From Halovenus carboxidivorans (GTDB taxonomy: Archaea > Halobacteriota > Halobacteria > Halobacteriales > Haloarculaceae): 64,000 nucleotides of DNA. Below the pieces are notes generated by a model that was not told where the DNA came from, did no database searches, and saw only the letters and a program-made list of their open reading frames with translations. The translations under genes and the position numbers were made by a program. Position 1 is the stretch's first letter, and each line of letters starts with the position of its first letter. This document shows, piece after piece, positions 4 through 21,369 of the stretch. The stretch is from the NCBI RefSeq assembly GCF_009831575.1, contig NZ_WUUT01000007.1:1-64000 (forward strand). The letters run 5' to 3'.

Positions 4-23
4 TTTCACCGGAAACGTGGTGT
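4..23 (+). promoter_or_regulatory. Origin recognition box (ORB)-like element upstream of orc1/cdc6
   Basis: The 20-mer tttcaccggaaacgtggtgt lies seven bases before the orc start codon. It has the ORB layout known from archaea: an imperfect palindromic core (tttcaccggaaa) followed by a G/T-rich arm. The same 20 bases recur, on the other strand, at 13677-13696 and 13843-13862, with a variant at 13778-13797. Its position suggests both origin function to the left of the window and autoregulation of orc. The assignment is by pattern; the window begins too close to see partner boxes. Confidence 0.6.
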
Positions 24-30
24 ACAAATC

Positions 31-1233
31 ATGGCCGACTCCGACGACCTGTTCATTCGGGAGGATCCGATCTTCGTCCAGAAGGAACTACTGGAGATCA
101 ACCATCTCCCCGACGAGGGGCGAATCGTCGGCCGGGACGAGGAACTTCGCAACCTCGCAAACGCGGTAAACCCCGCTATCTTCGGCCAGAGTCCGAGCAA
201 CGTTCTCATCTACGGCAAGACGGGCACCGGAAAATCACTCTGTGCCAAACACGTCTCTCACCGGTTGATCGACACCGCGGAAGAGGAAAACGTCGAGGCG
301 GATTTCGCGTACGTCGACTGCGCGCAGGATTCGACGGAGACCCAGGCCGTCCAGACCATCGCGTCCTCGCTCAACGATCCGACGGAAACGGACATCAAAA
401 TCCCGGACAAGGGAATCGCCACCTCGACGTACTACAAACGGCTCTGGGACATCCTCGACCGGCGGTTCGATGTCGTCCTCGTCATCCTCGACGAGATCGA
501 CAAACTGGCCGACGACGACATTCTGATGCAACTCTCACGCGCCGGCGAGGCGGGAAAGGTCGACAACTGCAAGATCGGCGTCATCGGCATCAGTAACAAG
601 ATCAAGTACAAAGAACAACAGCTCAACGAACGGGTCAAATCGAGCCTCTGTGAACGAGAGTTCGTCTTTCCGCCGTACGACGGGACCCAACTCAACGACA
701 TCATGTCCGCGCGGAAAGACGCCTTCCGCGACGGCGTGTTGCAGGACGGAGTCATCCCGAAGGCCGCGGCTCTCGCGGCCAGAGAGCACGGCGACGCACG
801 CCAGGCTATCGACATCCTTCGGTACGCCGGCGAAATCGCCCAGTCCCGAGGCGCGACCGAGGTCACCGAGGAGTTCGTCGTCGACGCCCGCGAACGAGCC
901 GAAACGGACCGGTTCCGGGAACTCATCCGCGGCTCGACTCCCCATTCACGGTACGTCTTGCAAGCGCTGACCATCCTCTCGCTCAACGACGACGACCAGG
1001 AAGGCTACCGAACCACGCGCATTTACGACATCTATCAGGAAGTGTGCCGTCAGGAGGGCTCAGATTCGCTCTCTCTCCGCCGGGTCAGAGACCTTCTCAA
1101 AGAGCACGCCTTTCTGGATATCACCAAACAGACCAGACACAGCGGCGGCAGCGCCGAGGGCAGTTACACCAACCACCAACTGCTCGAAGATCCGGAGGTA
1201 GTCCGGGAGGTACTCGCTGACACCGTGGAGTAA
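31..1233 (+). CDS. Orc1/Cdc6 family replication initiation protein
   Basis: This 400-residue AAA+ protein is an archaeal Orc1/Cdc6, which binds origin recognition boxes and loads the MCM helicase. Walker A (GKTGTGKS) is at residues 62-69 and Walker B (VILDEID) near 150-157; sensor-type residues follow, and the last 100 residues form the winged-helix DNA-binding domain (the YRTTRIYDIYQEV region). Length is normal for the family. The ATG at 31 is the natural start because it gives the usual acidic N-terminus, and an ORB-like box sits immediately upstream. Haloarchaea carry several Orc paralogues, each tied to its own origin, so no paralogue number is given. The downstream gene is convergent. 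Confidence 0.95.
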   Translation: MADSDDLFIREDPIFVQKELLEINHLPDEGRIVGRDEELRNLANAVNPAIFGQSPSNVLIYGKTGTGKSLCAKHVSHRLIDTAEEENVEADFAYVDCAQDSTETQAVQTIASSLNDPTETDIKIPDKGIATSTYYKRLWDILDRRFDVVLVILDEIDKLADDDILMQLSRAGEAGKVDNCKIGVIGISNKIKYKEQQLNERVKSSLCEREFVFPPYDGTQLNDIMSARKDAFRDGVLQDGVIPKAAALAAREHGDARQAIDILRYAGEIAQSRGATEVTEEFVVDARERAETDRFRELIRGSTPHSRYVLQALTILSLNDDDQEGYRTTRIYDIYQEVCRQEGSDSLSLRRVRDLLKEHAFLDITKQTRHSGGSAEGSYTNHQLLEDPEVVREVLADTVE

Positions 1234-2470: not shown

Positions 2471-4474
2471 TCAATCGAACCGGTCAATCGATGTCTGTTC
2501 GGAGCCGTCACTCTCGGAGTTTTCCGCGTTCCCGTCTGCCGACTCCGGCACCTCGGCAACCGCATCTCGATCATCCGGAGACGGCTCCCCCGTTTCCCGT
2601 CCGGCACCCGTCGGCACGGAGCCGGTATCGTCGACAACCTCGGGACTTTCCCGGCCGTCCACCGTTCGCCCGCCTCCCAATCGCTGTGCCGTTGGCGGAT
2701 CGGTCCCCCCTGGCTGGGGCTCTCCGCCCTCGACATCGGACAGCGATAGCTGCGTCGCGACCGTGTCATCGGACGGTCGCCCGTACTGGTCTGCGATGGC
2801 TCGGGCGGCCTCGTACCCGCCGGAGAAGGAGGCTCGCTTGGCAATCTCTGGACGGCCCAACTGCTCGGCGGCCAGCGGACGCTGTTGCTCGTACCACGAC
2901 CAGAACGCCTCGCGCTCGGTCTCGAAATCGACCACCGGTCGGGGGTAGCTCTCTCCGATTCGTACCCCGCAGTTCTCTTGGACCTCCAGCGGTGTCCGTT
3001 CCGGCCGGGGCAGGTACTGACTCGGTAGCTCTGCCAGCTCTGGAACCCAGCGGCTGATCCACTCCCCGTCGGGGTCGTGATCTCGGACCTGCTTTCGCGG
3101 GTTGTACACGCGCTGTGCCGGCTTGCCGATCAGCCCGGCCTGACTCTGCCACTGGGTGTAGTTGATCCCGACGTCGCTGTCGATCAGGTGATGGTGATAC
3201 CAGTCGGCACCGACCCACCACGGCTGTTTCAGAATATGTGCGAAAAACGAGGCACACATCGCCCGCATCCGGAAGTTCAGCCAGCCCGTCTCCCGAAGAC
3301 ACCGCATCGACGCGTCGACCATCGGGAATCCGGTTCCTCCCCGCTTCCAGGCCTCGATCAGTTGGGGGTCGTGGTTGTCCTCGTTGCGCCCCTCGAAGAC
3401 GGGATTGACGGCCCGATCAGTCCACCCGGGCCAGTCGACCAGTTTCTGGTTGTAGTGGCAGTTCCACACCAGCCGACTCGCGAACATCTCTCGTCCCCGA
3501 CAGTTAGGGGCGTTCTCGGCCACGTACTGGTAGACTTGCCGGATCGAGAACAGCCCGAAGTTGAGATACGGCGAGAGCCCGCTCGTCCCCTCGCGGGCGT
3601 CCTGCGGGGCGGAGATATTTCTCGGATACGAGCCGATTCGGTCGACGAACGACCGTAGTTGTTTGCTCGCTTTACGGTGGGTCCCGACCGGGACTCGACG
3701 CTTCGACGGCGTGATGTCGAAGGCTAGATCGACCCGCGCCGGCGTGACGCCCGTCTCGACCGTGAGGCGGGTCGTCTCTCTCCCCCAGTCCGGTTCGTGC
3801 TGGCTGTCGGTGAGCCAGTCGTCGATACGCGACTGCCAGTTCTCTCGCGTCCGGTCGCGGTCCCGAACCAGCCCGTCCCCGGAGACGAATCTGACGGCAT
3901 CGCCGCAGACGGTCCGGACACGGTCGTCTCGCCGCTTCCCGTATCGACTGGTCGGCGTCGCCATCGTCAGGACCGACCACCCGCGGTCGACGAACCGGGC
4001 GAGGATCTCTGCAGGAGCGCCGTAGCCGACAGTCAATCCCGTCTCTTCGCTCGACAGCGTGCTATCCTCGTGTTCGCTGCCGCCGTAATCTGCCAATCGC
4101 GTCTCGGACGTTCGTTCGTGTCCGTTTGTCCCGACAGACTCTGCCTGACACGGAGCGGCCGCGTACAGCCGAGCGAGGCTCGTCACGGACTGATGGAGAA
4201 AACGAACCCGGGAATCGCAGGCGAGCCCCTCCGAGCCGTAAAACGTCGGGTCGAAGACGAACAGCGGACAGATCACGTCGCTGTTCCCGACCGCCTCGCT
4301 CAGCCCTCGATGATCCTCGACTCGGAGGTGTTTCCGGTGCCAGACGACCGTCCCCTCTGCGTCAGTGTCCCCGGCCACCTCTGTGGGTGTCGGAATATCC
4401 GCTGGTAGTGGGAGGGCCACCGTGTCGCTATTTGGACTCTCCCTGCGGTCCACTCCCTCTCTCGAACCCGTCAA
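2471..4474 (-). CDS. DNA photolyase/cryptochrome family flavoprotein, unusually long
   Basis: This 667-residue protein has the N-terminal alpha/beta photolyase domain (VVWHRKHLRVEDH... at about residue 43) and the C-terminal FAD-binding domain, with GINYTQWQSQAGLIG and the following NPRKQ segment near residues 435-465 and the helix MVDASMRCLRETGWLN near 385. These are typical of CPD photolyases and class I cryptochromes, which repair UV dimers using FADH and blue light. Family members usually have 450-500 residues. The excess here is a hydrophilic insertion around residues 105-165, a 40-residue N-terminal extension and a roughly 110-residue acidic, Ser/Glu-rich tail ending in TSIDRFD. Repair versus sensory function cannot be decided from sequence. 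Confidence 0.9.
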   Translation of the reverse strand: MTGSREGVDRRESPNSDTVALPLPADIPTPTEVAGDTDAEGTVVWHRKHLRVEDHRGLSEAVGNSDVICPLFVFDPTFYGSEGLACDSRVRFLHQSVTSLARLYAAAPCQAESVGTNGHERTSETRLADYGGSEHEDSTLSSEETGLTVGYGAPAEILARFVDRGWSVLTMATPTSRYGKRRDDRVRTVCGDAVRFVSGDGLVRDRDRTRENWQSRIDDWLTDSQHEPDWGRETTRLTVETGVTPARVDLAFDITPSKRRVPVGTHRKASKQLRSFVDRIGSYPRNISAPQDAREGTSGLSPYLNFGLFSIRQVYQYVAENAPNCRGREMFASRLVWNCHYNQKLVDWPGWTDRAVNPVFEGRNEDNHDPQLIEAWKRGGTGFPMVDASMRCLRETGWLNFRMRAMCASFFAHILKQPWWVGADWYHHHLIDSDVGINYTQWQSQAGLIGKPAQRVYNPRKQVRDHDPDGEWISRWVPELAELPSQYLPRPERTPLEVQENCGVRIGESYPRPVVDFETEREAFWSWYEQQRPLAAEQLGRPEIAKRASFSGGYEAARAIADQYGRPSDDTVATQLSLSDVEGGEPQPGGTDPPTAQRLGGGRTVDGRESPEVVDDTGSVPTGAGRETGEPSPDDRDAVAEVPESADGNAENSESDGSEQTSIDRFD

Positions 4475-4866
4475 TACACACGGGTTCGGCGGCCAGAGAC
4501 TTCAACTCGTCGTAGAGCGAGAAGATCTAGGATCCGGAATGATAACCATCTCCGTGAGCTTACATGCCCTGATCCCGCCTCGCTTAGAGGTCCTCTCCGA
4601 CGGGCGTCGTCTGCTAATCAACATGTGGGCGGTCGTCCGCATTTCGCGTACTCTGATTAGCCTACTCAGCCACACCCGGGAAACGGGTGCAACACGAAGA
4701 AAGTATACCCCACAGTCTTTCGCCAATTTCGTCCCGTGTGTGTATTTCTCGATGGAGGATCGTACATTAATACAATCTAATCTATTGCAATAGTAAAAGG
4801 CAACTAATTATGTATTATTTTTGCCTACGGGTATGCACGTCCATCTCCGGACGAGCAGGGTGAGCC
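4475..4866. other. Divergent intergenic region between photolyase and DyP-like gene
   Basis: This 392-nt spacer holds the promoters of two divergent genes. A small hairpin (CACCCG, loop ggaaa, CGGGTG) is at 4673-4689. The right 100 nt are AT-rich. No credible open reading frame is present. Confidence 0.6.
4782..4826 (+). promoter_or_regulatory. Putative promoter with palindromic operator
   Basis: A perfect 12-bp palindrome, CTATTGCAATAG, is at 4782-4793. It is followed by AGGCAA (4798-4803) and its inverse TTGCCT (4821-4826), which bracket an AT-rich TATA-like stretch (taattatgtattat). The start codon of the Tat protein is 40 nt further on. The layout fits a regulated promoter, but the regulator is unknown. 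Confidence 0.45.
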
Positions 4867-7065
4867 ATGACCTGTCCAGTACATAACGATGACGACACTG
4901 AGAACGGAAGCGGGGATACAAAAGCCGGTCACGACGACGGAGAAAAACGTAGCCGTGGCGTCGACCGCCGGGAGTTCATGCGATCGGCGCTCGCGATCGG
5001 CGGCATAAGTGCTCTCTCGACCGCCCTTGGCGTGGGTGGTGTGCCGTCGGTTGCTGCTGCGGAGGACGATCACGAACCGATTAGCTTCGCAGCTAGAGAC
5101 AACCGACAGCACGCCTGGGACGGATACGAGAAGTACTTTCCCCAGCGTGAACAGACGCTTCCACCCGAGTACCACCTCCTCCTCCACGTCGATTATCTCG
5201 GGGACGGGGAACCGACAGCCGAAGACCGGGAAACTGTCGCCCAGGCGTTTCGGGACGTGGAACGAACGTTCGAGTGGAGTCACGAAGGGATTCTGTTCAC
5301 CGTGAGTTACTCGCCGGCATACTTCGACCGATTCGACGAGTCGTTGCCACAGGGCATCGGCCCCGCGACGGAGGTCGATTTCGACAAGCCGTCGCTCCTT
5401 CGGCCCGAGACACTTATCGACCTCCCAGGTGTGACGCTGGAGCGAGAACGACCGGTCGAGGCGGACACCTTCGACGCCTGCATTCATCTCGCCAGCGACG
5501 ATATCGGCAAACTTCTGCTGGCCGAAGCGATGCTGTGGGACGATTACGATCCCGACACTGTGTGGGAAGACGCACCTCCCGAGGATCCGGAGCCGTTCGA
5601 GCACACGCTCGACGGGATCCTCAGCAAGCCGGTCTCGTATCCGGAGCGTCGGGTCGGCTTCGCCGGTCACGAAAACGTCGAGGAGCGACTGGCCGAGGAT
5701 ACGGAGTTCGATGCCGACCGTGTCCCGGATGAGGACGAGTTCGACGACGAGGTCGGAGCGCACCCGGCAGCCGAACTCTCGATGGGGTTCAACGACCAGT
5801 ACAAAAACAGCCTCCCGCGCGAGACGAACGTCACTCTGCTGGAAGACCAGCGGCTCGTCGTACCCAAGGATCCCGGCGTGTTCGCTCAAGGAACTATTCA
5901 ACACGTCTCGAAGTTGAACATCGACTTGGAGGGGTTCTACGACGACAACGACCGCACGGAGCGGCGAGAGAGGATGTTCTCACCGGATCACGACGACGAG
6001 AACACCGGTGCGGTCGGGGAGAATCTGGGGAACTCGAACGCGCCGGGGGAGACGCCAATGCGTGACGTATCGCAGGCGTCCGATGATCCCACGGCCGGTG
6101 ACAAGGCACGCGAGACACAGCCGGACTGGGACGATGAGGGGGTCGTCGGCCATGCACAAAAGGTCGCACGAGCCCGCTTCGACATGGAGACTCGGATCAC
6201 CGACGAGGGCCAGGAGCGCCTCTCGGGTGGTGACCGTGACGAACTGCTGCCCGCGGAGGAGCGCGACGACGAACTCCCGGGACACGACGGCGACCAGGAG
6301 ACTGAGGGAGTGATGCTCCGTCGTGACTTTGCTGGCACTGCTCCGGCCGCGCCCGACGAAGACCGGGTTCCTGGCAATCACTTCGTGGCTCTCATGCGGT
6401 TCAACCCGTACATGGCCTACATGCGTCAGGCCATGAACGGGGTCCCGCTCGATTCGGCTACCTTTGGCCTGACCGACGACGGTCGTATTGACCATCGAAA
6501 AACAGGGGCGGTATTCGACGACGACGGGAATCTGGTTGACGTCGATGAAAACAGTGGGATCGCCCACTACCTCACCACACAGCGGCGCGGCAACTATCTC
6601 GTGCCGCCACTCACCCAGCGGGCGCTCCCGTATCCACAGGCCGACAACGTTGAAATCGACGTGAAACGGGCCGGAGAAAACTACCGTGTGACCGTCGAGG
6701 GCCTCTCGGCGGGCGACCTCGCGGACGGAACGGTCCGGTTCGGGTGGTTCTACGACGTGAACCGGTCCCGTGGCGCCGAGCCACGACAGGAAACACAGCG
6801 CGGCAACCGGACGACGTTCGTCTTCCCGGCCGACGAGACGGGGATCGAAACCGCTCCGGGTGGCCCCGACGGGGACGTTCGAGTCCGGTTGTACGCCGAA
6901 CGCGACGGCACCCGGCGACCGGTTCGAGGGACTGCGACAATCGACGGTAAAAGAGAAGATGCGAGCGAACAGCGAAAAAGCGGTGAGAAGGAAGACAGGA
7001 GCAAAGCCGACGAGAGCAACGGCCGCGGTCAGGCGGGGAGAACGGGGTCTGATCGGCCCACCTAA
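4867..7065 (+). CDS. Tat-exported DyP-type-peroxidase-like protein
   Basis: This 732-residue secreted protein has a twin-arginine signal (RREFMRSALAIGG, RR at 34-35, followed by a hydrophobic stretch and AAAE). The main domain recalls DyP peroxidases: a GFNDQYKN segment where DyPs have GF.DG, a later GNHFVALMRFNPYMAYMRQ segment, and the closing QRRGNYLVPPLTQRALPYP, which matches the DyP end motif. I could not assign the heme-ligand His with certainty. After about residue 595 a beta-rich domain follows, then a charged tail of about 40 residues. DyP-like function (H2O2-dependent oxidation outside the membrane) is an inference; similar haloarchaeal proteins are mostly annotated as uncharacterised Tat-signal proteins. 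Confidence 0.65.
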   Translation: MTCPVHNDDDTENGSGDTKAGHDDGEKRSRGVDRREFMRSALAIGGISALSTALGVGGVPSVAAAEDDHEPISFAARDNRQHAWDGYEKYFPQREQTLPPEYHLLLHVDYLGDGEPTAEDRETVAQAFRDVERTFEWSHEGILFTVSYSPAYFDRFDESLPQGIGPATEVDFDKPSLLRPETLIDLPGVTLERERPVEADTFDACIHLASDDIGKLLLAEAMLWDDYDPDTVWEDAPPEDPEPFEHTLDGILSKPVSYPERRVGFAGHENVEERLAEDTEFDADRVPDEDEFDDEVGAHPAAELSMGFNDQYKNSLPRETNVTLLEDQRLVVPKDPGVFAQGTIQHVSKLNIDLEGFYDDNDRTERRERMFSPDHDDENTGAVGENLGNSNAPGETPMRDVSQASDDPTAGDKARETQPDWDDEGVVGHAQKVARARFDMETRITDEGQERLSGGDRDELLPAEERDDELPGHDGDQETEGVMLRRDFAGTAPAAPDEDRVPGNHFVALMRFNPYMAYMRQAMNGVPLDSATFGLTDDGRIDHRKTGAVFDDDGNLVDVDENSGIAHYLTTQRRGNYLVPPLTQRALPYPQADNVEIDVKRAGENYRVTVEGLSAGDLADGTVRFGWFYDVNRSRGAEPRQETQRGNRTTFVFPADETGIETAPGGPDGDVRVRLYAERDGTRRPVRGTATIDGKREDASEQRKSGEKEDRSKADESNGRGQAGRTGSDRPT

Positions 7066-7259: not shown

Positions 7260-7691
7260 TCACTGCTGCTCGAAGACGTGGACCGGCCAGTCAGTCTCGT
7301 AATCAAGCGCAGCCTCTCGCTCCGGGGCTGTCGGCTCACGTACCGTGAGTTCGACCGAGTCTCCGATACTGACATCGGCGTAGTCGGCGTCCACGCGTCC
7401 GAGAAGGCGGCCACCGTCCGCGAGTTCCACGACGGCGACCGTGTACGGTGCGTCCGCTGCGAACGCCGGCGGCGGCGTGTGGACCGCCGTGTACGAGAAG
7501 ATCCTCCCTTCACGCGACTGTGGTTCGACGGTGACAGCCCGACTGCCGCAAGCATAACAGGCCGGCCGCGGCGGTAACAGAACCTGCTCGCAGTCGGCAC
7601 AGACACCACCCAAGAGGGTGCCGTCTGCGAGGGCGGCAAAGAAACCCGGGAGTGTCCGCGGGTCGGTCGCATCGAGGCTACTGTCAGTCAT
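7260..7691 (-). CDS. Zn-ribbon/OB-fold protein (DUF35 family)
   Basis: This 143-residue protein has the DUF35 layout: an N-terminal helix, a rubredoxin-like zinc ribbon with Cys31, Cys34, Cys45 and Cys48, then a C-terminal OB-fold (GRIFSYTAVHTPPPAF and following strands). Such proteins bind acyl-CoA thiolase-like enzymes and are needed for their activity. The start codon overlaps the stop of the upstream thiolase-like gene by 4 nt (ATGA), so the two are translated together and very likely form one complex. Confidence 0.92.
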   Translation of the reverse strand: MTDSSLDATDPRTLPGFFAALADGTLLGGVCADCEQVLLPPRPACYACGSRAVTVEPQSREGRIFSYTAVHTPPPAFAADAPYTVAVVELADGGRLLGRVDADYADVSIGDSVELTVREPTAPEREAALDYETDWPVHVFEQQ

Positions 7692-8857
7692 CGTGCCTCC
7701 GCCGTCGTGAGCACGTGGCTAACGGTAACGGCGTCCGCAACGCCTCCCTCGTTGAGCAGCAGTGCCGTCTCAGCGTCTGTGATCGTGCGGTCGCCTGCTG
7801 TGCCCGTGAGCTGTTCGTATGCCTCAAGCGCCTGCAAGAGTCCGGTCGCGCCGATGGGGTGGCCACGAGCTTTCAATCCGCCGCTGGGACTCAACTGCAC
7901 GTCCGTCCAGCCGGTAGCTCGCTCCGCTGGCGGCAGATAGCTCTGATAGCCCGTCCCCGCAGGGGCGAAACCGGCGGCCTCCGCGAGCAGCGCCTCGCAG
8001 ACGGTGAATGCGTCGTGAACCTCCACGATGTCGACCGCCCCGGCGTCGATGCCCGCCTCCTCGTAAGCTCTCTCGGCAGCGACGCGAGCGCCAGCGATCT
8101 CGGTCATATCTCGTTCGGCGACCGCGATACTGTTCGCGGAGGCCCCGCTGCCCGCGACGCGCACCTGGGGGCGGTCGAGGTCAGCCGCCAGATCGGGCGT
8201 CGTCACGAGGACGGCCGCGGCACCGTCTCCGACCGGCGCACAGTCGAACAGTTTCAGCGGCGGAGCGACGGGATCGGATTCCAGAACCGTCGCCACGTCG
8301 ATCTCCTCCGGGAACTGCGCTCGGGGGTTGTTGGCGGCGTTGGCGTGGTTCTTTACGGCGATTTCCGCAAGGTCACGCTCTGTCGCATCCGTCTCGTGGA
8401 GGTAGCGCTGTGCGAGCAGTGCATACTGGCTGGGCGCGGTGACGCCCGAGCGCTGCTCGATGGCACGATCGAACGCCGCCGACAGCGCGTCTGTCGCACC
8501 GCTGGTGCCCGCTGCCGTCATCTTCTCGACGCCGCAGGCGAGTACGGCCTCGTGTTCCCCGTTCCGGACGTCTTTGACGGCGTGGCGTAAGGCGAGTGCG
8601 CCCGCGGCGGCACATCCCTCGACCCGCTCGGCGGGAACGTGACGGAGGCCGGCCCACTCCGCCAACAGCGTCCCGTACATGATCTGGTGTTCGTAGCTCT
8701 CCGACTGGTTGCCGACGTACATCGCCTCGACGAGATCGGCAGGGGCTGGCAGTTCGTCGAACGCCTCCGCGAGGGCGAGCGAAAACAGGTCGCGGCCCGG
8801 AAGGTCCGTGTGGCCGAGCGGCGAGGCGCCGACCGACGCGATGACTGGCTCTGGCAT
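7688..8857 (-). CDS. Thiolase-like (SCP-x/Ltp2 type) protein
   Basis: This 389-residue protein has the thiolase fold with VEVHDAFTVCE and the C-terminal GGLKARGHPIGATG. In an ungapped hand alignment with SCP-x thiolases, the nucleophile position (VEAACASGG in typical members) reads VEGCAAAG, so the Cys is one residue early and the expected position is Ala. The usual second C-terminal Cys is also absent. The partner gene is a DUF35 protein. Thiolase-like enzymes without the nucleophile that pair with DUF35 proteins include the steroid side-chain retro-aldolase Ltp2, so C-C bond cleavage is a real alternative to thiolysis. Start: ATG at 8857 gives MPEPVIAS; an ATG at 8878 is only about 20 nt from the TATA-like stretch (8895-8910) and is less likely. 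Confidence 0.88.
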   Translation of the reverse strand: MPEPVIASVGASPLGHTDLPGRDLFSLALAEAFDELPAPADLVEAMYVGNQSESYEHQIMYGTLLAEWAGLRHVPAERVEGCAAAGALALRHAVKDVRNGEHEAVLACGVEKMTAAGTSGATDALSAAFDRAIEQRSGVTAPSQYALLAQRYLHETDATERDLAEIAVKNHANAANNPRAQFPEEIDVATVLESDPVAPPLKLFDCAPVGDGAAAVLVTTPDLAADLDRPQVRVAGSGASANSIAVAERDMTEIAGARVAAERAYEEAGIDAGAVDIVEVHDAFTVCEALLAEAAGFAPAGTGYQSYLPPAERATGWTDVQLSPSGGLKARGHPIGATGLLQALEAYEQLTGTAGDRTITDAETALLLNEGGVADAVTVSHVLTTAEAR

Positions 8858-9010
8858 GTGTACGTACCCACTCTCCATGAGTCAAGTTAACTATTTACAT
8901 TTATCACCAGTCGAATCTACCGTAGACCGACCCGATGCCCGACAGTTCGTTTTAAAACACTGGTTTTGCAAACCGAGAGGTCCCGGCCCCGGGTGTAACG
9001 AGAGGGTACC

Positions 9011-9241
9011 TCAGTGGTCCGACGACCCAGTCTGTCGGGCGATCAGTCCCAAGTTCGCGACAGTGAGAGGAGTAAGATAGTTCAGCGTGATACGGACCCA
9101 AAAGGACAGCTCGAGGCCTAAAAGCGCCGTCGCGTGATTGAACAGCGTCAGCCACGTCCCGACGAGCAGTGCGATACCCGCCGTGCGGATGACGTGGTCA
9201 CGGTCGAGACAGACAGCGAGTGACTCGATACCGTGGCTCAT
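9011..9241 (-). CDS. nrtS: Small membrane protein, NrtS-like
   Basis: This 76-residue protein has two hydrophobic helices. The core ALLVGTWLTLFNHATALLG followed by ITLNYLTPLTVANLGL matches the pattern of NrtS (VGT.LT..N.....G......I.L.YL.P..V). NrtS is a two-helix protein implicated in nitrate/nitrite transport in cyanobacteria. A TATA-like tttatatttt (minus strand) is about 25-30 nt upstream of the start. No nitrate-reduction genes adjoin it except a MOSC protein, so the role here is uncertain. Confidence 0.65.
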   Translation of the reverse strand: MSHGIESLAVCLDRDHVIRTAGIALLVGTWLTLFNHATALLGLELSFWVRITLNYLTPLTVANLGLIARQTGSSDH

Positions 9242-9305
9242 GTTATCCTATTACGTGTTTTCAAAATATAAAGTTATTGTAGGTGTAAGTTCACGCTCAG
9301 GTATA

Positions 9306-10094
9306 TTACAATCGCACCGGATCCCCGACACTGAGCGTGCGGTTCCGATCGGATTCTGGGATCCGCGTGCCGACTGCGAGGCTGAATAGGTTCCCGTCGA
9401 ACTCGCTCACGTCCACCCAGGCAGGGAGCCTCTCCCGTCGTTCGTGGACGAACGTCTCCCTGAACTCCGGATGCTCGGCTCCCGTACGCGGGTCACGAGT
9501 CGGAACGACGCAGCGAGGGATCGGTCTGACTCCCGAGAGAGCGACCTCACCGATTCGGAACCGGCGGCCGCCGTCTGTGAACAACTGGTCCTCCCAGAAC
9601 GGGGGGACCCCTGAGACGACGAGATTGGGCCGCAAGCGGAGACACATCTCAGCGGAGTCGATGTCATCGTACCAGGAGGCTACCTCTTCGAGAGTCCCCC
9701 GACTGACAAGCGTCGGCCCGGCCCCTCCGTCTTCGGTGAAAACGGCGCTGTCGGTCTGATTCCCGCCCGTGCCGCGTTCGAGGTGTACTGCTGTACCGAA
9801 GTACTCTGACAACCACGCTTCGAGCGTTGCTCGGTCGTCTTCGAGATGGAACTCGTGGGACGCCCCCTCTCCGCGCACCCTCCCAGTGAGTCGCTTCGTC
9901 GCCGGATCGTACTCCGTGTCGAGCCGATGGACAGCGGCAGTCCGCTTTCCGTGGACGTAATTGCCGTCTTCGTCTTTGATGCCGTAGATCCGGTCGTGGG
10001 CGAGCCCCCCGGCGCTGGAAACCGACACCCTCGGGAGGCGGACGGGATCGAGTGCTTTGACCGGGTACACGAGAATCTGAGAGAGCGTTGGCAT
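9306..10094 (-). CDS. MOSC domain-containing protein
   Basis: This 262-residue protein has the MOSC N-terminal beta-barrel (ILVYPVKALDPVRL at residues 7-20, then LAHDRIYGIKDEDG) and the MOSC domain with the conserved Cys in RCVVPTRDPRTG near residue 195-206. MOSC proteins bind the molybdenum cofactor or carry sulfur, as in the mARC N-hydroxyl reductases. It lacks the ferredoxin domain of YiiM/YcbX-type fusions. It is divergent from the small zinc-finger gene at 10261. Confidence 0.9.
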   Translation of the reverse strand: MPTLSQILVYPVKALDPVRLPRVSVSSAGGLAHDRIYGIKDEDGNYVHGKRTAAVHRLDTEYDPATKRLTGRVRGEGASHEFHLEDDRATLEAWLSEYFGTAVHLERGTGGNQTDSAVFTEDGGAGPTLVSRGTLEEVASWYDDIDSAEMCLRLRPNLVVSGVPPFWEDQLFTDGGRRFRIGEVALSGVRPIPRCVVPTRDPRTGAEHPEFRETFVHERRERLPAWVDVSEFDGNLFSLAVGTRIPESDRNRTLSVGDPVRL

Positions 10095-10230
10095 CGTACG
10101 AGGCTTGTTATCGTTTTGAGAGTATAATTGTTATCTAGTAACACAGTATCCTCTCTGGTACCGATAACACCCCTCTGTCCTCCGGTCGCCGTTCACAAAC
10201 GAGTCTGCTGCGACCGCGGCGTAGCGAAGG

Positions 10231-10238
10231 TTTATATA
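10231..10238 (+). promoter_or_regulatory. TATA box of the small zinc-finger gene
   Basis: tttatata lies 23-30 nt before the ATG at 10261, the spacing expected for a leaderless haloarchaeal transcript. Confidence 0.65.
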
Positions 10239-10260
10239 CGTAGCGGTTGAGTGTGAATAC

Positions 10261-10431
10261 ATGGCAGAGGAATGTCATCTTTGCGGCAGCAGTGTCGCCG
10301 AAAACGGGGTGTCGCCCACAGAAGCGGACGCGGGGTTTATCTGTGCCGACTGCGGGGAGCCGACCTGTGCCGATTGTAAATCGATCGGGGTAGCACGCGA
10401 CACGGACCACTGCAAGCGCTGCCGCGGGTGA
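10261..10431 (+). CDS. Small zinc-finger protein with four CXXC/CHLC knuckles (56 aa)
   Basis: The frame encodes 56 residues from ATG to TGA. Four Cys pairs are seen: Cys5/Cys8 (CHLC), Cys28/Cys31 (CADC), Cys36/Cys39 (CADC) and Cys51/Cys54 (CKRC), enough for two zinc ions in a treble-clef or double-ribbon fold. A strong TATA box at the leaderless distance supports expression. Very small multi-CXXC proteins are common in haloarchaea and some control motility or biofilm formation, but no specific function can be assigned here. Confidence 0.8.
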   Translation: MAEECHLCGSSVAENGVSPTEADAGFICADCGEPTCADCKSIGVARDTDHCKRCRG

Positions 10432-10595
10432 CGTTCTCCGCGCCGTGACCGGCAGACATCTCTCGCCGCACTGAGATAGCTCTGCCGGGAGGCGGCGGGG
10501 TTGTTGGAGAACTCTGCGGTTTGCCTTCACAACTGTACTCTCGGTGACGGCCTCCGTGCAAACCGCGGATCGCAGGCTCACAGCCTGCCGCCACG

Positions 10596-12293
10596 TCAGT
10601 CGCCTTCCATCACACTGAGTGACGGCTGATCCCCTTTCGGGTCGAGGTCGCTGATCGACTCGGTGAGCTCGAACCCTTCGTACCCCTTCTGGGCGACCTC
10701 CTGGATCGTCTGATGGTAGACGTCGACCCCACCGATGTAGGGGGTGAAGACGGTCGGCTTGTCTTCGATATTTTCGTTCATGTACCAGGAATCGGCCGTG
10801 GGATACAGCGTCTGCTCGGCCACTTCGGTGTTGTGGGCGGTCCACGCCTCTTCGGCCTCTCTGGTCGGTTCGACGAGGCGGATATCGTTCTCTGCGAAGT
10901 GGTTGATCGCGTCGGAGACCCACTCGACGTGGTGTTCGATAGAGACGGGCATGTTGCTGAGCACCGACGGGCTCTGCGGGCCGGTGATCGTGAACATGTT
11001 CGGGAACCCGTGAACGGCGAGGCCGAGATACGTCTGTGGCCCGTCAGCCCACTTCTCCTCGAGAGTCAGATCGTCCCGGCCTCGAATATCCATATTCAAC
11101 AGCGTCCCGGTCATCGCGTCGAAGCCGGTCGCGTAGATAATCATATCGAACTCGTGATGATCGTCCGAGGTCTGGATCCCCTCCGGGGTCATTCGCTCGA
11201 TCGGTGTCTCGGTTACGTCCACGAGGCTCACGTGATCCTCGTTGAACGTTTCGTAGTAGTTCGTGTGCAGTGGGGGGCGTTTCGTCGCGTAGTAGTGGTC
11301 TTTGGGGACGAGTTTCTCCGCCAACTCCGGATCGTCGACGGTTTCGCGGATCTTCTCACGGACGAACTGGGACACTTTCTCGTTCGTCTCCGGGTTGAAC
11401 ACGAGATCCTCGAAGGTGAGCATAAACCGGAACCCACCTTCTTGCCAGCGAGGCTCCAGAATCTCCCGGACTTCCTCCATCGATTTGTCCTCGGCGGTGG
11501 GATACGCCGGATCGAACGGCATCCCGAATCCGTTCTCGTGAGCGGTTTGTAGGATCTCGTCGTAGTTCTTCTGGATCTCGTCCCAGTCGTCGTCTTCGAG
11601 CGGACGGTCCCGTGCGGGGACGGCGTAGTTCGGCGTCCGTTGGAAGACTGTAAGATGGTCGATATCCTCCTCGGCGACCTCCGGAATGACCTGAATGCCG
11701 GAGGCACCGGTGCCGATAACCGCGATGCGTTTCCCGGCGAAGTCGACGCCGTCGTGTGGCCACCGACCCGTGTGGTACGCCTCGCCCTCGAAGGAGTCGA
11801 TGTGGTCGAAATCCGGAACCCACGGTTCGGACAGACAGCCGACAGCGGTCACGAAAAACTGTGACGTGAGTTCCTCGCCGTCGTCGGTACCGATTCTCCA
11901 CTGGCCGTCACTCTCGTCGAATGACGCGGACGTGACCTCCGTCCCGAACTCGATGTCTTTCCGCAGGTCGAGGCGGTCCGCGACGAATCGCAGGTACTCC
12001 AGCACCTCTGGCTGTGACGGATACCGCTCGCTCCACTGCCACTCTTCGAGGATCTCCTCGTTAAACGAGTAACAGTAGACGTGACTCTCGCTGTCGCACT
12101 GGGCACCGGGATACCGGTTCCAGTACCACGTGCCGCCGACGTCGTCGGCTTTTTCGATCACCTTGACTGACAGCCCGAACTCATCCCGCAGGCGGTGGAG
12201 CTGATAGAGCCCCGAAAATCCGGCCCCGACGATAACTGCGTCGTAATCAGTTTCGTACACTGTCCCCCCGGAGTGTTCAGTCTGCGAACTCAT
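10596..12293 (-). CDS. Flavin-containing monooxygenase, Baeyer-Villiger type
   Basis: This 565-residue protein has the FAD-binding GAGFSG (residues 23-28), the linker VGGTWYWNRYPGAQCD, the Baeyer-Villiger fingerprint FEGEAYHTGRWP (about 167-178) and the second, NADPH-binding GTGASG (about 197-202). Length matches cyclohexanone/phenylacetone-type monooxygenases, which insert oxygen next to a ketone to give an ester or lactone using NADPH and O2. The upstream gene on the same strand encodes an esterase that could hydrolyse such products. A 113-nt spacer with its own AT-rich promoter separates them. Confidence 0.93.
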   Translation of the reverse strand: MSSQTEHSGGTVYETDYDAVIVGAGFSGLYQLHRLRDEFGLSVKVIEKADDVGGTWYWNRYPGAQCDSESHVYCYSFNEEILEEWQWSERYPSQPEVLEYLRFVADRLDLRKDIEFGTEVTSASFDESDGQWRIGTDDGEELTSQFFVTAVGCLSEPWVPDFDHIDSFEGEAYHTGRWPHDGVDFAGKRIAVIGTGASGIQVIPEVAEEDIDHLTVFQRTPNYAVPARDRPLEDDDWDEIQKNYDEILQTAHENGFGMPFDPAYPTAEDKSMEEVREILEPRWQEGGFRFMLTFEDLVFNPETNEKVSQFVREKIRETVDDPELAEKLVPKDHYYATKRPPLHTNYYETFNEDHVSLVDVTETPIERMTPEGIQTSDDHHEFDMIIYATGFDAMTGTLLNMDIRGRDDLTLEEKWADGPQTYLGLAVHGFPNMFTITGPQSPSVLSNMPVSIEHHVEWVSDAINHFAENDIRLVEPTREAEEAWTAHNTEVAEQTLYPTADSWYMNENIEDKPTVFTPYIGGVDVYHQTIQEVAQKGYEGFELTESISDLDPKGDQPSLSVMEGD

Positions 12294-12379
12294 AACAGCA
12301 CCAATACATAATGATTTAACATTACATAAGTCTTGTCAACGTTAGGTACTTTATTCTCTGTTGAAAATAGTTCCTAACG
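12294..12379 (-). promoter_or_regulatory. Promoter region of the monooxygenase with wide inverted repeat
   Basis: The spacer contains CGTTAGG (12340-12346) and its exact inverse CCTAACG (12373-12379), whose centres are 33 nt apart, close to three helical turns. AT-rich sequence (aatgatttaacattacataa, plus-strand reading) lies between them and the start codon at 12293. Two half-sites for one regulator flanking the upstream promoter region is a reasonable reading; a terminator is unlikely because the loop is 26 nt. Confidence 0.35.
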
Positions 12380-12406
12380 GCCGGACTGTGTTAACGGGGG
12401 GTGTGA

Positions 12407-13378
12407 TTACTCCTCGATGGTCCTGCGGAGATCGGTTACGGTGTCGTCGAGGAGTTCGCGCGCACGGGTCAGGTCCATCGGTTCAACCACCATCTGTGCG
12501 ATCCCGTGGATGCAATCCTCGTAGTTGTGATGCTCGACAGAGACACCTGCATCTCTGAGCCGCTCCGCATATGCGGCACCCTCGTCCCGGAGTGGATCGA
12601 GTCCGCAGGTGGCCACTGTCGCTGGCGGGAGGTCATCGAGGCTCTGTGCCTGTAGCGGTGATGCGTACGGGTGTTTCCCGTCTATCTCGTCGCGGAGGTA
12701 GTGGTTCCAGAACCACCGCATATCGTCTTCCGAGATCATTCCGCCCTCACCGTTCTCGTCGTACGATGGGGTATCGTAACTGTGGTCCGTCACGGGATAG
12801 ATGAGCACTTGTCGAGCGATAGACGGTCCGCCGGTATCGCGAGCGCGAAGCGCAACGGCAGCCGCGAGATTGCCGCCGGCGGAGTCACCGCCCACGAACA
12901 GGTTCTCGGTGTCGACCTGCATCGTCTCCGCGTTCTCACTCACCCACTCGAAGGCTGCATAACAGTCCTCCAGCGGCGTCGGGAACTTGTGTTCGGGAGC
13001 CAGCCGGTAATCGACAGACACGACCATACAGTCGGCCTCACTCGACAGCACCCGACACGTCTCGTCGTGGGTATCTAAATCGCCGATAACCCAACCGCCG
13101 CCGTGGAAGTACACCAGCGTGGGGTACGGCCCCTGTCCTTCGGGGATGTACACCCGGATCGGGATGTCATTATCGGTGATCCTCAGTTCCATGATGTCCC
13201 CGACCTGCGTCGGCTCCTCGGGATCGGGGAACATCTCCCTGGCAAAGGCCCGGGCGCCGTTCGGAGACAGCGACGAGAACGCTGGCATCGGTTCGGCTCC
13301 CATCTGCTCTAACAACCCCGCAATCTCTGGATGTGGTTCCTCTGCTGCACCTGCCATTGGATTTTCAATTGACATCAT
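12407..13378 (-). CDS. Alpha/beta hydrolase, hormone-sensitive-lipase (HSL) family esterase
   Basis: This 323-residue protein has the HSL oxyanion motif HGGGW (about 91-95), the nucleophile motif GDSAGG (about 162-167), an Asp in LDPLRDEG and a His in CIHGIAQM near the C-terminus, which completes the triad. Family members hydrolyse short-chain esters in the cytoplasm. The start ATGATG at 13378/13375 follows a TATA-like gttatatact (minus strand) by about 25 nt, so the transcript is probably leaderless. Together with the downstream monooxygenase it would suit a ketone-to-ester-to-acid route, which is inferred. Confidence 0.93.
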   Translation of the reverse strand: MMSIENPMAGAAEEPHPEIAGLLEQMGAEPMPAFSSLSPNGARAFAREMFPDPEEPTQVGDIMELRITDNDIPIRVYIPEGQGPYPTLVYFHGGGWVIGDLDTHDETCRVLSSEADCMVVSVDYRLAPEHKFPTPLEDCYAAFEWVSENAETMQVDTENLFVGGDSAGGNLAAAVALRARDTGGPSIARQVLIYPVTDHSYDTPSYDENGEGGMISEDDMRWFWNHYLRDEIDGKHPYASPLQAQSLDDLPPATVATCGLDPLRDEGAAYAERLRDAGVSVEHHNYEDCIHGIAQMVVEPMDLTRARELLDDTVTDLRRTIEE

Positions 13379-13676
13379 TATAGATCGTTACATTCTCAGT
13401 ATATAACTTTAATGCAAAAATCAGGTTCCCACGAACGGCTCTCACACCCCTCAATCGGCCGTTAGAAGCCGTTGAATTAAAGGATCCGCCTCTGATATAT
13501 AAGAAAATTAACTTATCGCGTCGTATATTCACCCCACCGACGGCTGGCTGATCGGTGACGGTTTCACTGATTCTGTGCCGGCCCTCGTTCGTGGGCGCCG
13601 ATAGCAAACTGAGGACACTTACCCCTTCGCCGGGACCGACCGCGCGACGGAACGACAGTTCCCACGCCTGCCCGAC

Positions 13677-13696
13677 ACACCACGTTTCCGGTGAAA
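13677..13696 (-). promoter_or_regulatory. ORB-like element, copy 1
   Basis: On the minus strand this reads tttcaccggaaacgtggtgt, identical over 20 nt to the box before orc (4-23). Confidence 0.65.
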
Positions 13697-13777
13697 TCCC
13701 TTCCATCTGAACGTGGGCACCTCACATCCGTTCGGCGGGGTGCCCGGCCCGAGTAGGACCGGCTTAACTAAATACAC

Positions 13778-13797
13778 ACACCGGATTTCCGGTGAAA
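13778..13797 (-). promoter_or_regulatory. ORB-like element, copy 2 (variant)
   Basis: On the minus strand this reads tttcaccggaaatccggtgt. Three adjacent bases in the middle differ from copies 1 and 3; the core tttcaccggaaa and the end ggtgt are kept. It begins 101 nt after copy 1. Confidence 0.6.
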
Positions 13798-13842
13798 AAC
13801 GTCCCGCTGAACGTCTTCCCTGCCGACTGGTGGACTGCCTGC

Positions 13843-13862
13843 ACACCACGTTTCCGGTGAAA
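13843..13862 (-). promoter_or_regulatory. ORB-like element, copy 3
   Basis: Identical over 20 nt to copy 1 and to the box before orc, same orientation as copies 1 and 2, 65 nt after copy 2. Confidence 0.65.
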
Positions 13863-14106
13863 CCTCTTTACCGGAACACAGACGCCGCGGGGCCGGTGTC
13901 TGACTGACGATCCATCCGAATACCTCACCGTTTTTATTTGACGCCAGCACCGCCTGGAGGCCGACAATACAGACGAACGGGTGCACGCGGCGGTTCGCAC
14001 CGTGAATCACGACCTCCTGAATCGAGACACGTACTGCCGGTTCGGTCGGCTTGTTCGTTCTGCGATGACATAATGCCTATTTGAGTGGGGTCCGTTCGTC
14101 TACGGA

Positions 14107-19461: not shown

Positions 19462-19998
19462 TCAGTGCAGCGTTCCCTCGCGGTGTTTGTCGTCGTAGGC
19501 AAACAGCGCGTACCCGACCTCCTCGGCGGTGTAGCCCGTCTCCGCCGCGATATCGCGGATCGGCTCGATCATCGTCACGTAATCAGCCGGCGAAAAGGAC
19601 TCCTTGCGACCCTCGACGTGTCCGAACCGTTCGAGCGTCGCCCACACGCGGGTGTCCACGACGGCGTGTGACTCCGGATCGAGAGCTGTCACGACACAGG
19701 AGGCCGTGGGTGCCTTGAACCCGCGCAGTCCCGTCAACAACTGCAGTTTCGAGAAGTCGTCCTCGACGAGCAGCACGTTTGCCGTCACCTGCCGACAGCG
19801 ATCCTCGGGGTTCTTCTCGACGTGGTACGCGCTTCGCGTCGAGGACTCGTATGCAATGTCGTACAATTGATTACGCGTCAGATATCCCTGCTCGCGGTAC
19901 TGCTCGCCGAAGCCGTGCAGTCGCTCCGGGAGCACGCCCTGTGTCTGTTCGTAGTAGTCGAGGTAGTTCTCGATCAACTCCGCGTCGATCGTCGCCAT
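19462..19998 (-). CDS. Uncharacterised protein with helix-hairpin-helix-like segment
   Basis: This 178-residue protein belongs to no family I can name securely. The central LLTGLRGFKAPTASCVVTALDPE followed by VVDTRVWATLERF resembles the helix-hairpin-helix plus catalytic-Asp region of the EndoIII/OGG DNA-glycosylase fold (L.G.G...AS.....P..F.V.DT.V). It lacks an obvious catalytic Lys before the HhH and an iron-sulfur cluster. The N-terminal half is helical and charged. It follows a P450 gene on the same strand with a 45-nt gap. A DNA-binding or degenerate glycosylase role is speculative. Confidence 0.75.
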   Translation of the reverse strand: MATIDAELIENYLDYYEQTQGVLPERLHGFGEQYREQGYLTRNQLYDIAYESSTRSAYHVEKNPEDRCRQVTANVLLVEDDFSKLQLLTGLRGFKAPTASCVVTALDPESHAVVDTRVWATLERFGHVEGRKESFSPADYVTMIEPIRDIAAETGYTAEEVGYALFAYDDKHREGTLH

Positions 19999-20043
19999 CG
20001 TCCGAACAACGGCTGTCGAGGGGCAAAAACCCGTGCGGTTCGG

Positions 20044-21369
20044 TCACTCCCGACGGGAGATTTCCATCTCCATGCCGTCCCGCGGATGCAGTGTCAGCGT
20101 CGGCCGCAACTCCAACTGCGCGGACCCCTCGTAGGAGAGCTCGTACTCGCTTGCCACCATCGCGACGATCATCTGCGCTTCGAGTTTGGCGAGGTTCTTC
20201 CCGATACAGTGACGCGGCCCGCCGCCGAAGGGGAAGTACGAAAACCGGTGGCCGTTTCGGTCGGCCCACCGCTCCGGGCGGAACTGTTCGGGGTCGTCCC
20301 AGTACTCCGGCGAGCGGTGGACGGCCCACTGCGAGAGCATAACCATCGCGTCCTCGGGAATCTCGTAGCCCAGCAGTTCGACCGCCTCGTTGGCCTCCCG
20401 AAACAGCGTGTACACGGGCGGGTACAGCCGCATCGCCTCGTCGATGACCCACTCCAGGTACTCGAAGCTCTGCACGTCGTCGATCGTCGGCGTCCCCTCG
20501 ATTCTGTCGACCTCCTCGTAGAGGCGTTCCCGTTTCTCGGGGTGTTCGGAGAGGAGATACCAGGTGTAGGTGAGCGTCAGCGCCGTGGTGTCGTGGCCGG
20601 CCAGCAGCATCGTCACCACCTCGTCACGGAGCTGCTGGGCGGACTGTTCGCCGCGGCTCTGGGCACGCAGCAGAATCGAGAGGAGATCCATCGGCGCGCC
20701 CTCACCATCGCCCTCCGTTCCGCGGCGGTCGGCGATGATCTCCTCGACAATCTCGTCGACGGCCGAGACGGCCGACTGGTAGGCGCGGTCACCGGGGAGG
20801 GGGACCCACGGCGGCAGCGCGAACCGGACGGGATCGGGCTCGAACTGGCTGCCGATCGGTTCGAGATTCTCCCGGAGTTGGCTGAGCTGTCGCTCCGAAA
20901 GTTCGGTGCCGAGCATCAGATCCGCGATGACGTCGATCGTCACCCGGGTCATCTCTCGCTCCATGTCGCGGCGCTCGCCGTCGCCCCAGCGGTCGAGCAG
21001 GTCGCTGGTGTGGCCGGCGATGCGGTCGTCGAAGGAGGCGAGTCGACCCATGGTGAAGGCTGGATTGGCGAGTTGGCGCTGTTTCTGCCAGGTGTCGCCC
21101 TCGCTGAGCAACAGCCCGTCGCCGAGCAGATCACCCAGCGTGTCGCTCTGAAAGTCCGGTTTGCGGTACTTGTCGGCATCACCGACGAGAATCTGCTCGA
21201 TTGCCGACGGCTCGGCGACGAAGTAGGTCTCCATCGGCCCCATCTCGAAGGCGGCGATTCCGTTGTACGCGCGTTCGACCTCTTCGACGAAACGGAGTGG
21301 GTCCGCGGAGTACTGCCGGCCGCTCCCGAACAGCGGTTCGCCCCGCGGCCCCGGTGGCGTCGTTTGCAC
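20044..21369 (-). CDS. Cytochrome P450
   Basis: This 441-residue soluble P450 has the I-helix AGHDTTALTLTYTW (about 255-268), the K-helix EAMR, and the heme loop FPFGGGPRHCIGKNLA with the Cys thiolate ligand near residue 386. Length is normal. No redox-partner gene adjoins. Such enzymes hydroxylate lipids, terpenoids or steroids, and haloarchaeal members often sit near carotenoid or lipid genes, but the substrate cannot be read here. It is on the same strand as the HhH-like gene and SDR downstream. Confidence 0.95.
   Translation of the reverse strand: MQTTPPGPRGEPLFGSGRQYSADPLRFVEEVERAYNGIAAFEMGPMETYFVAEPSAIEQILVGDADKYRKPDFQSDTLGDLLGDGLLLSEGDTWQKQRQLANPAFTMGRLASFDDRIAGHTSDLLDRWGDGERRDMEREMTRVTIDVIADLMLGTELSERQLSQLRENLEPIGSQFEPDPVRFALPPWVPLPGDRAYQSAVSAVDEIVEEIIADRRGTEGDGEGAPMDLLSILLRAQSRGEQSAQQLRDEVVTMLLAGHDTTALTLTYTWYLLSEHPEKRERLYEEVDRIEGTPTIDDVQSFEYLEWVIDEAMRLYPPVYTLFREANEAVELLGYEIPEDAMVMLSQWAVHRSPEYWDDPEQFRPERWADRNGHRFSYFPFGGGPRHCIGKNLAKLEAQMIVAMVASEYELSYEGSAQLELRPTLTLHPRDGMEMEISRRE

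Follow-up and report, generated by a model that had tools for sequence, protein, structure and literature searches.

The intergenic region at 13.4–14.1 kb of the plasmid contig C7 holds a cluster of three Orc boxes. Our preferred explanation, with a probability of roughly 0.4, is that they form a detached array outside the origin, to which the Orc1/Cdc6 protein encoded on the plasmid itself binds and which acts as an initiator sink. The window analysed here comprises bases 1–64000 of C7 (138,659 bp), one of the 10 contigs of a 3.25 Mb draft assembly. The cluster sits between two divergent genes, of which the histidine kinase had already been named as a neighbour by the first-pass annotation, while the other codes for an alpha/beta hydrolase. 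No orc gene adjoins it. On the same replicon as orc, the cluster lies 14 kb from the canonical origin and about 12.4 kb past the orc end. The features that are relevant for the following analysis are compiled in Table 1.

Table 1. Orc boxes, the initiator gene and the genes and AT-rich DNA next to the orphan cluster, with positions in the window.
Feature	Position	Strand	Remarks
Orc box in the orc promoter	4..23	+	27 bp before the ATG; position matched in relatives
orc1/cdc6 family replication initiator, 400 aa, presumed binder	31..1233	+	TIGR02928; Cdc6 lid and winged-helix domains
Alpha/beta hydrolase, LipP1-type lipase/esterase	12407..13378	-	PF07859, NF058653
AT-rich patches	13379..13530	.	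Hydrolase side; AT profile and sequence
Orphan Orc box 1	13677..13697	-	Perfect over 20 nt against the orc-promoter box
Orphan Orc box 2	13778..13797	-	17/20; variant also in relatives' arrays
Orphan Orc box 3	13843..13863	-	Perfect over 21 nt
PAS/GAF histidine kinase, 1001 aa	14107..17112	+	

In the whole genome there are exactly five copies of the 20-mer TTTCACCGGAAACGTGGTGT, all of them on C7, namely at 4(+), 13677(-), 13843(-), 137948(-) and 138616(+). A whole-genome scan for the box with up to 3 mismatches gave 5 matches, again all on C7, and the reversed-pattern control gave 0 matches genome-wide. Within the window, a 21-mer scan at the same tolerance of 3 mismatches resulted in 3 matches, compared to 0 expected from shuffled sequences. 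These data confirm the earlier description of three boxes in the same orientation, two of which are identical over 20 nt to the orc-promoter box, and the search for scattered unrelated sites that had been proposed along with it found matches confined to C7. The remaining box, 13778(-), reads TTTCACCGGAAATCCGGTGT and differs from the 20-mer by 3 mismatches; other plasmids have exactly this variant in their box arrays. Judged by sequence, it is well supported that the orphan boxes are genuine members of the box class of this plasmid's Orc family.

The Orc protein encoded on C7 is 72–82% identical to the Orcs of 23 related plasmids. All 23 of these have a box of the same class 22–29 bp ahead of the orc start, and in nearly every case the adjoining origin contains such a box as well. 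Since none of the other Orc homologues in the genome exceeds 41% identity to the C7 Orc over the aligned parts, and since no box (up to 3 mismatches) is present elsewhere in the genome, the C7 Orc alone qualifies as a plausible binder. Most simply, the orphan boxes would thus be sites for the Orc encoded at 31–1233, in line with the single binding protein postulated by the first-pass annotation. A relation to oriP-cdc6K was considered as well and rejected, as the Orc of pHH400 has no more than 36% identity.

The canonical origin of the plasmid is, on the evidence of its layout, the region from C7 137948 to 23, next to orc. Here, two perfect copies of the 20-mer (137948(-) and 138616(+)) form a canonical origin at the far contig end, where a 39-nt inverted repeat with 97% complementarity flanks 634 bp of AT-rich DNA. 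When C7 is circularised without an added base, a plus box is located at -74 and the promoter box at -27 relative to the orc start. The same arrangement, with the next plus box at -74 or -75 and the promoter box at -27 or -28, is seen in 7 of the 23 related plasmids. From this box spacing, C7 is most simply taken to be a complete circular plasmid that was cut beside its origin. The spacing also bears on the possibility that the cluster was wrongly joined to C7 during assembly, which a draft of 10 contigs might suggest. Such an artefact is very improbable, given that the C7 ends circularise with the box spacing of the relatives, that the contig shows a clean two-arm GC skew, and that the DNA flanking the cluster is unique apart from the boxes.

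The detrended cumulative GC skew of C7 has its maximum at 138161, inside the canonical origin, and its minimum at 67886, opposite to it (block-shuffle p = 0.0005). Calibration of this method on 11 plasmids, C7 included, placed the maximum at most 0.5 kb from the inverted box array in 5 cases and farther away in 6, so that the skew is informative where it agrees with the boxes and silent otherwise. A two-arm fit of GC3 likewise locates the C7 origin at the junction, but proved noisy on other plasmids, and the raw detrended skew was therefore used. At 13.77 kb the skew curve lies 25% of its range below the maximum, with no turning point at the orphan locus. The per-coding-strand GC3 skew amounts to -0.19 for plus genes and -0.06 for minus genes between 0 and 13.4 kb, and to -0.18 and -0.06, respectively, between 13.4 and 40 kb; it changes on the other arm. 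This suggests that over evolutionary time replication forks crossed the orphan locus from the orc side, 13 kb being a short stretch for such a comparison.

In the C7 origin and its relatives, the main flanking boxes point with their TTTCACC end toward the core, the left-hand boxes being minus and the right-hand ones plus. At the orphan cluster, the TTTCACC side, i.e. the right side where a core would be expected, contains 42% AT, while the AT-rich patches are situated on the opposite side. Hence, the reported proximity of the boxes to AT-rich DNA holds in part. There are two such stretches to the left of the boxes (13379–13428 with 72% AT and 13479–13528 with 66% AT), but they are patchy and adjoin the hydrolase start, and the flanks of the cluster reach 48% AT on the left and 42% on the right, compared to 56% in the 646-bp core of the canonical origin. 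The patches are more likely the promoter region of the hydrolase than an unwinding element. A plus-strand box was not found near the cluster at up to 6 mismatches, so that the three minus boxes lack an inverted partner. Because of this missing partner, the AT-rich DNA on the wrong side and the skew maximum elsewhere, the locus is regarded as an Orc-box cluster and not as a sustained origin. That it is not the main origin of the plasmid is well supported by these sequence features.

The same observations weigh on the idea that the cluster is a second origin, or a dormant one, which depends on the Orc encoded 12 kb away. The perfect boxes and the AT-rich patches would fit such an origin, dormant origins are known in Haloferax mediterranei (PMC4595724), and a Halorientalis litorea plasmid with an Orc of the same family carries an inverted array at its skew maximum 15 kb from the Orc gene. 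However, apart from the geometry and the position of the skew maximum, the strand-corrected skew is equal on both sides of the cluster, and in H. hispanica the loss of either inverted box impairs autonomous replication from oriC1 (PMC3936714). A second or dormant origin is thus quite improbable. The second origin that the first-pass annotation had offered as one possibility is not supported as an active origin, as the box geometry is wrong, no unwinding region is present on the correct side and the skew puts one origin at the junction beside orc.

Separation of box arrays from orc does occur within the Orc family of C7. In the Halorientalis litorea plasmid (NZ_CP095483.1) the only inverted array spans 19936–20789, while the single Orc homologue found is encoded at 3757–4956; the skew maximum at 20267 falls inside the array, 15.3 kb from Orc, and it appears that origin and Orc gene have become separated in this plasmid. 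In NZ_CP019069, 44 kb separate an inverted array from an Orc of the C7 family, which has boxes beside it too; four Orc homologues are present in all, and the skew is uninformative. In the 90000–98500 region of the Haladaptatus salinisoli plasmid NZ_CP085333.1, the orc-promoter box is retained at orc and the rest of the array is 5 kb away. In the Halosegnis marinus plasmid NZ_CP119803.1 (a 163,478-bp record), the boxes recur with a fixed shift of about 115,343 bp, a pattern suggestive of terminal redundancy of the record.

Such separations speak in favour of the cluster being a relic, i.e. the left-hand satellite array of an origin that became displaced, or stayed behind, when a plasmid was rearranged or fused with another, and that has no present role. 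All three orphan boxes are minus, as in the left arrays of the relatives' origins, and left of the C7 origin core there is one minus box only, compared to up to seven in the relatives. Moreover, the left flank of a Salinirubellus plasmid has similar box types, and a spacing of 104 bp there comes close to one of 101 bp in the cluster. Yet two of the boxes are perfect, with no other recognisable trace of an origin around them, whereas a dead relic should decay evenly unless it is recent. With the boxes masked, the locus has no similarity to the origin regions of relatives, and no orc remnant is found among the annotated neighbours of the cluster, although an old relic could also look like this in both respects. 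Looking for remains of a gene in the DNA that separates the boxes from the kinase, we found a 43-aa open stretch, which has no match in the plasmid collection. Among 394 Halobacteriales genomes no conserved cluster flanks were found beyond the boxes, the window itself excepted, and the genomes searched for a conservation test contained no second copy of the C7 plasmid. We consider a relic somewhat less likely than the initiator sink, of which it is a close rival. Titration site and relic, both of which had been put forward by the first-pass annotation, thus stay as the two best readings.

The position between divergent genes could also indicate a transcriptional site, at which bound Orc would control the hydrolase or the kinase, either as repressor or as activator. 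The orc promoter itself carries a box at -27, and in Saccharolobus the Orc1 homologue Orc1-2 regulates transcription (PMC9738581). The orphan boxes, however, are about 300 bp and 240 bp away from the two gene starts and thereby off the core promoters. In addition, DNA searches with the hydrolase show that the similarity to its closest homologues ends with the gene and that the intergenic DNA is not shared; the relatives of the histidine kinase are remote and offer no syntenic intergenic region for comparison. Regulation of the neighbouring genes is hence an unlikely function. The hydrolase belongs to a catabolic-looking block at 7260–13378 of the window (thiolase, MOSC protein, flavin monooxygenase, alpha/beta hydrolase), and monooxygenase and hydrolase are adjacent in Natribaculum plasmids, too. 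Farther along the window, between 48000 and 60000, the G+C content is lower (58–61%) and several long stretches are without a called gene.

We favour an initiator sink because boxes behind orc are missing on C7, because its box count is low without the orphan cluster and because oriC2D of Haloarcula hispanica provides a precedent. While 18 of the 23 relatives carry at least one box directly behind orc (counted at up to 4 mismatches), C7 has none. At up to 3 mismatches, C7 has 3 boxes without the cluster and 6 with it; the relatives have 5–14. In the proposed mechanism, the Orc made at 31–1233 would bind the three orphan boxes, and the Orc held there would leave less free initiator for the origin and the orc promoter, which in turn may restrain initiation and copy number. 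The cluster would then be a sink of the kind inferred genetically for oriC2D, placed about 12 kb past the orc end instead of directly behind it. Against this assignment stand the distance of about 12 kb and the number of boxes, 3 compared to 11 in oriC2D. In addition, the orphan boxes are all minus, compared to mostly plus boxes behind orc in the relatives, and a simple displacement of a behind-orc array would therefore require an inversion.

The recurrence of boxes away from origins, some of them conserved in position, supports the initiator sink. Such solitary boxes were found with zero control matches. The clearest of them, located 3' of cdc48 and oriented as the gene, is present in 21 genomes from five genera of one family, lying 119–280 bp past the matched gene end in the eleven genomes measured. 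As read in two genera, it is placed between convergent cdc48 and peroxiredoxin genes. It is absent from 16 of 16 examined genomes that do not have this box class. The distance between the cdc48 box and the origin array is about 190 kb in one genome; in another, the two are on different contigs. A search of the literature for the box together with cdc48 and haloarchaea found no description of it in titles or abstracts. Two genera also have solitary boxes 3' of a gene for a polyprenyl synthase. We tentatively suggest that this Orc family has a small network of selected non-origin sites, comprising detached clusters and solitary boxes such as that 3' of cdc48, which may set the level of free initiator or couple replication to other loci.

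If detached boxes do titrate Orc, archaeal control by an initiator sink need not adjoin the origin, and shifting or removing a handful of boxes could offer a way to tune the copy number of a plasmid. The comparison also yields testable cases in the plasmid with a skew-supported origin 15 kb from its Orc gene and in the solitary box found behind cdc48 in many genomes.

Compared to known systems, the orphan cluster has the same box sequence as canonical haloarchaeal origins next to orc/cdc6 (e.g. C7 137948 to 23; 16 relatives examined), but differs from them in having neither inverted boxes around an AT-rich core nor an adjacent orc, the latter being a usual, not an absolute, feature of origins of the orc/cdc6 type. 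The array of Halorientalis litorea NZ_CP095483.1 has the same box class and is likewise remote from an Orc of this family, at a distance of about 15 kb; in contrast to the orphan cluster it is fully inverted, lies at the skew maximum and looks like a working origin. With the poorly boxed oriC3-cdc6D* of H. hispanica, which has one box on either side of the cdc6 gene and no ARS activity (PMC3528665), the cluster shares boxes without a complete origin layout, although oriC3* still flanks a cdc6 gene. The proposed logic, in which initiator boxes away from the origin hold initiator, resembles that of the Escherichia coli locus datA (discussed in PMC3936714); since datA concerns the bacterial DnaA, this is an analogy only and no homology. 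A close counterpart is oriC2D of Haloarcula hispanica, where 11 boxes lie within 722 bp directly behind cdc6E. This element shows no activity as an origin but exerts negative control over oriC2, and titration of Cdc6E has been proposed as its mode of action; the number of boxes matters, a partial set of the downstream boxes having an intermediate effect (PMC3936714). In both cases, the Orc boxes occur apart from the origin proper, share a replicon with the Orc gene and show no recognisable origin structure. The effect of oriC2D was tested genetically, whereas the orphan cluster, with 3 boxes, is known from its sequence. Given its position about 12.4 kb past orc, we file the cluster as a candidate that would work like oriC2D, and not as a member of that class.
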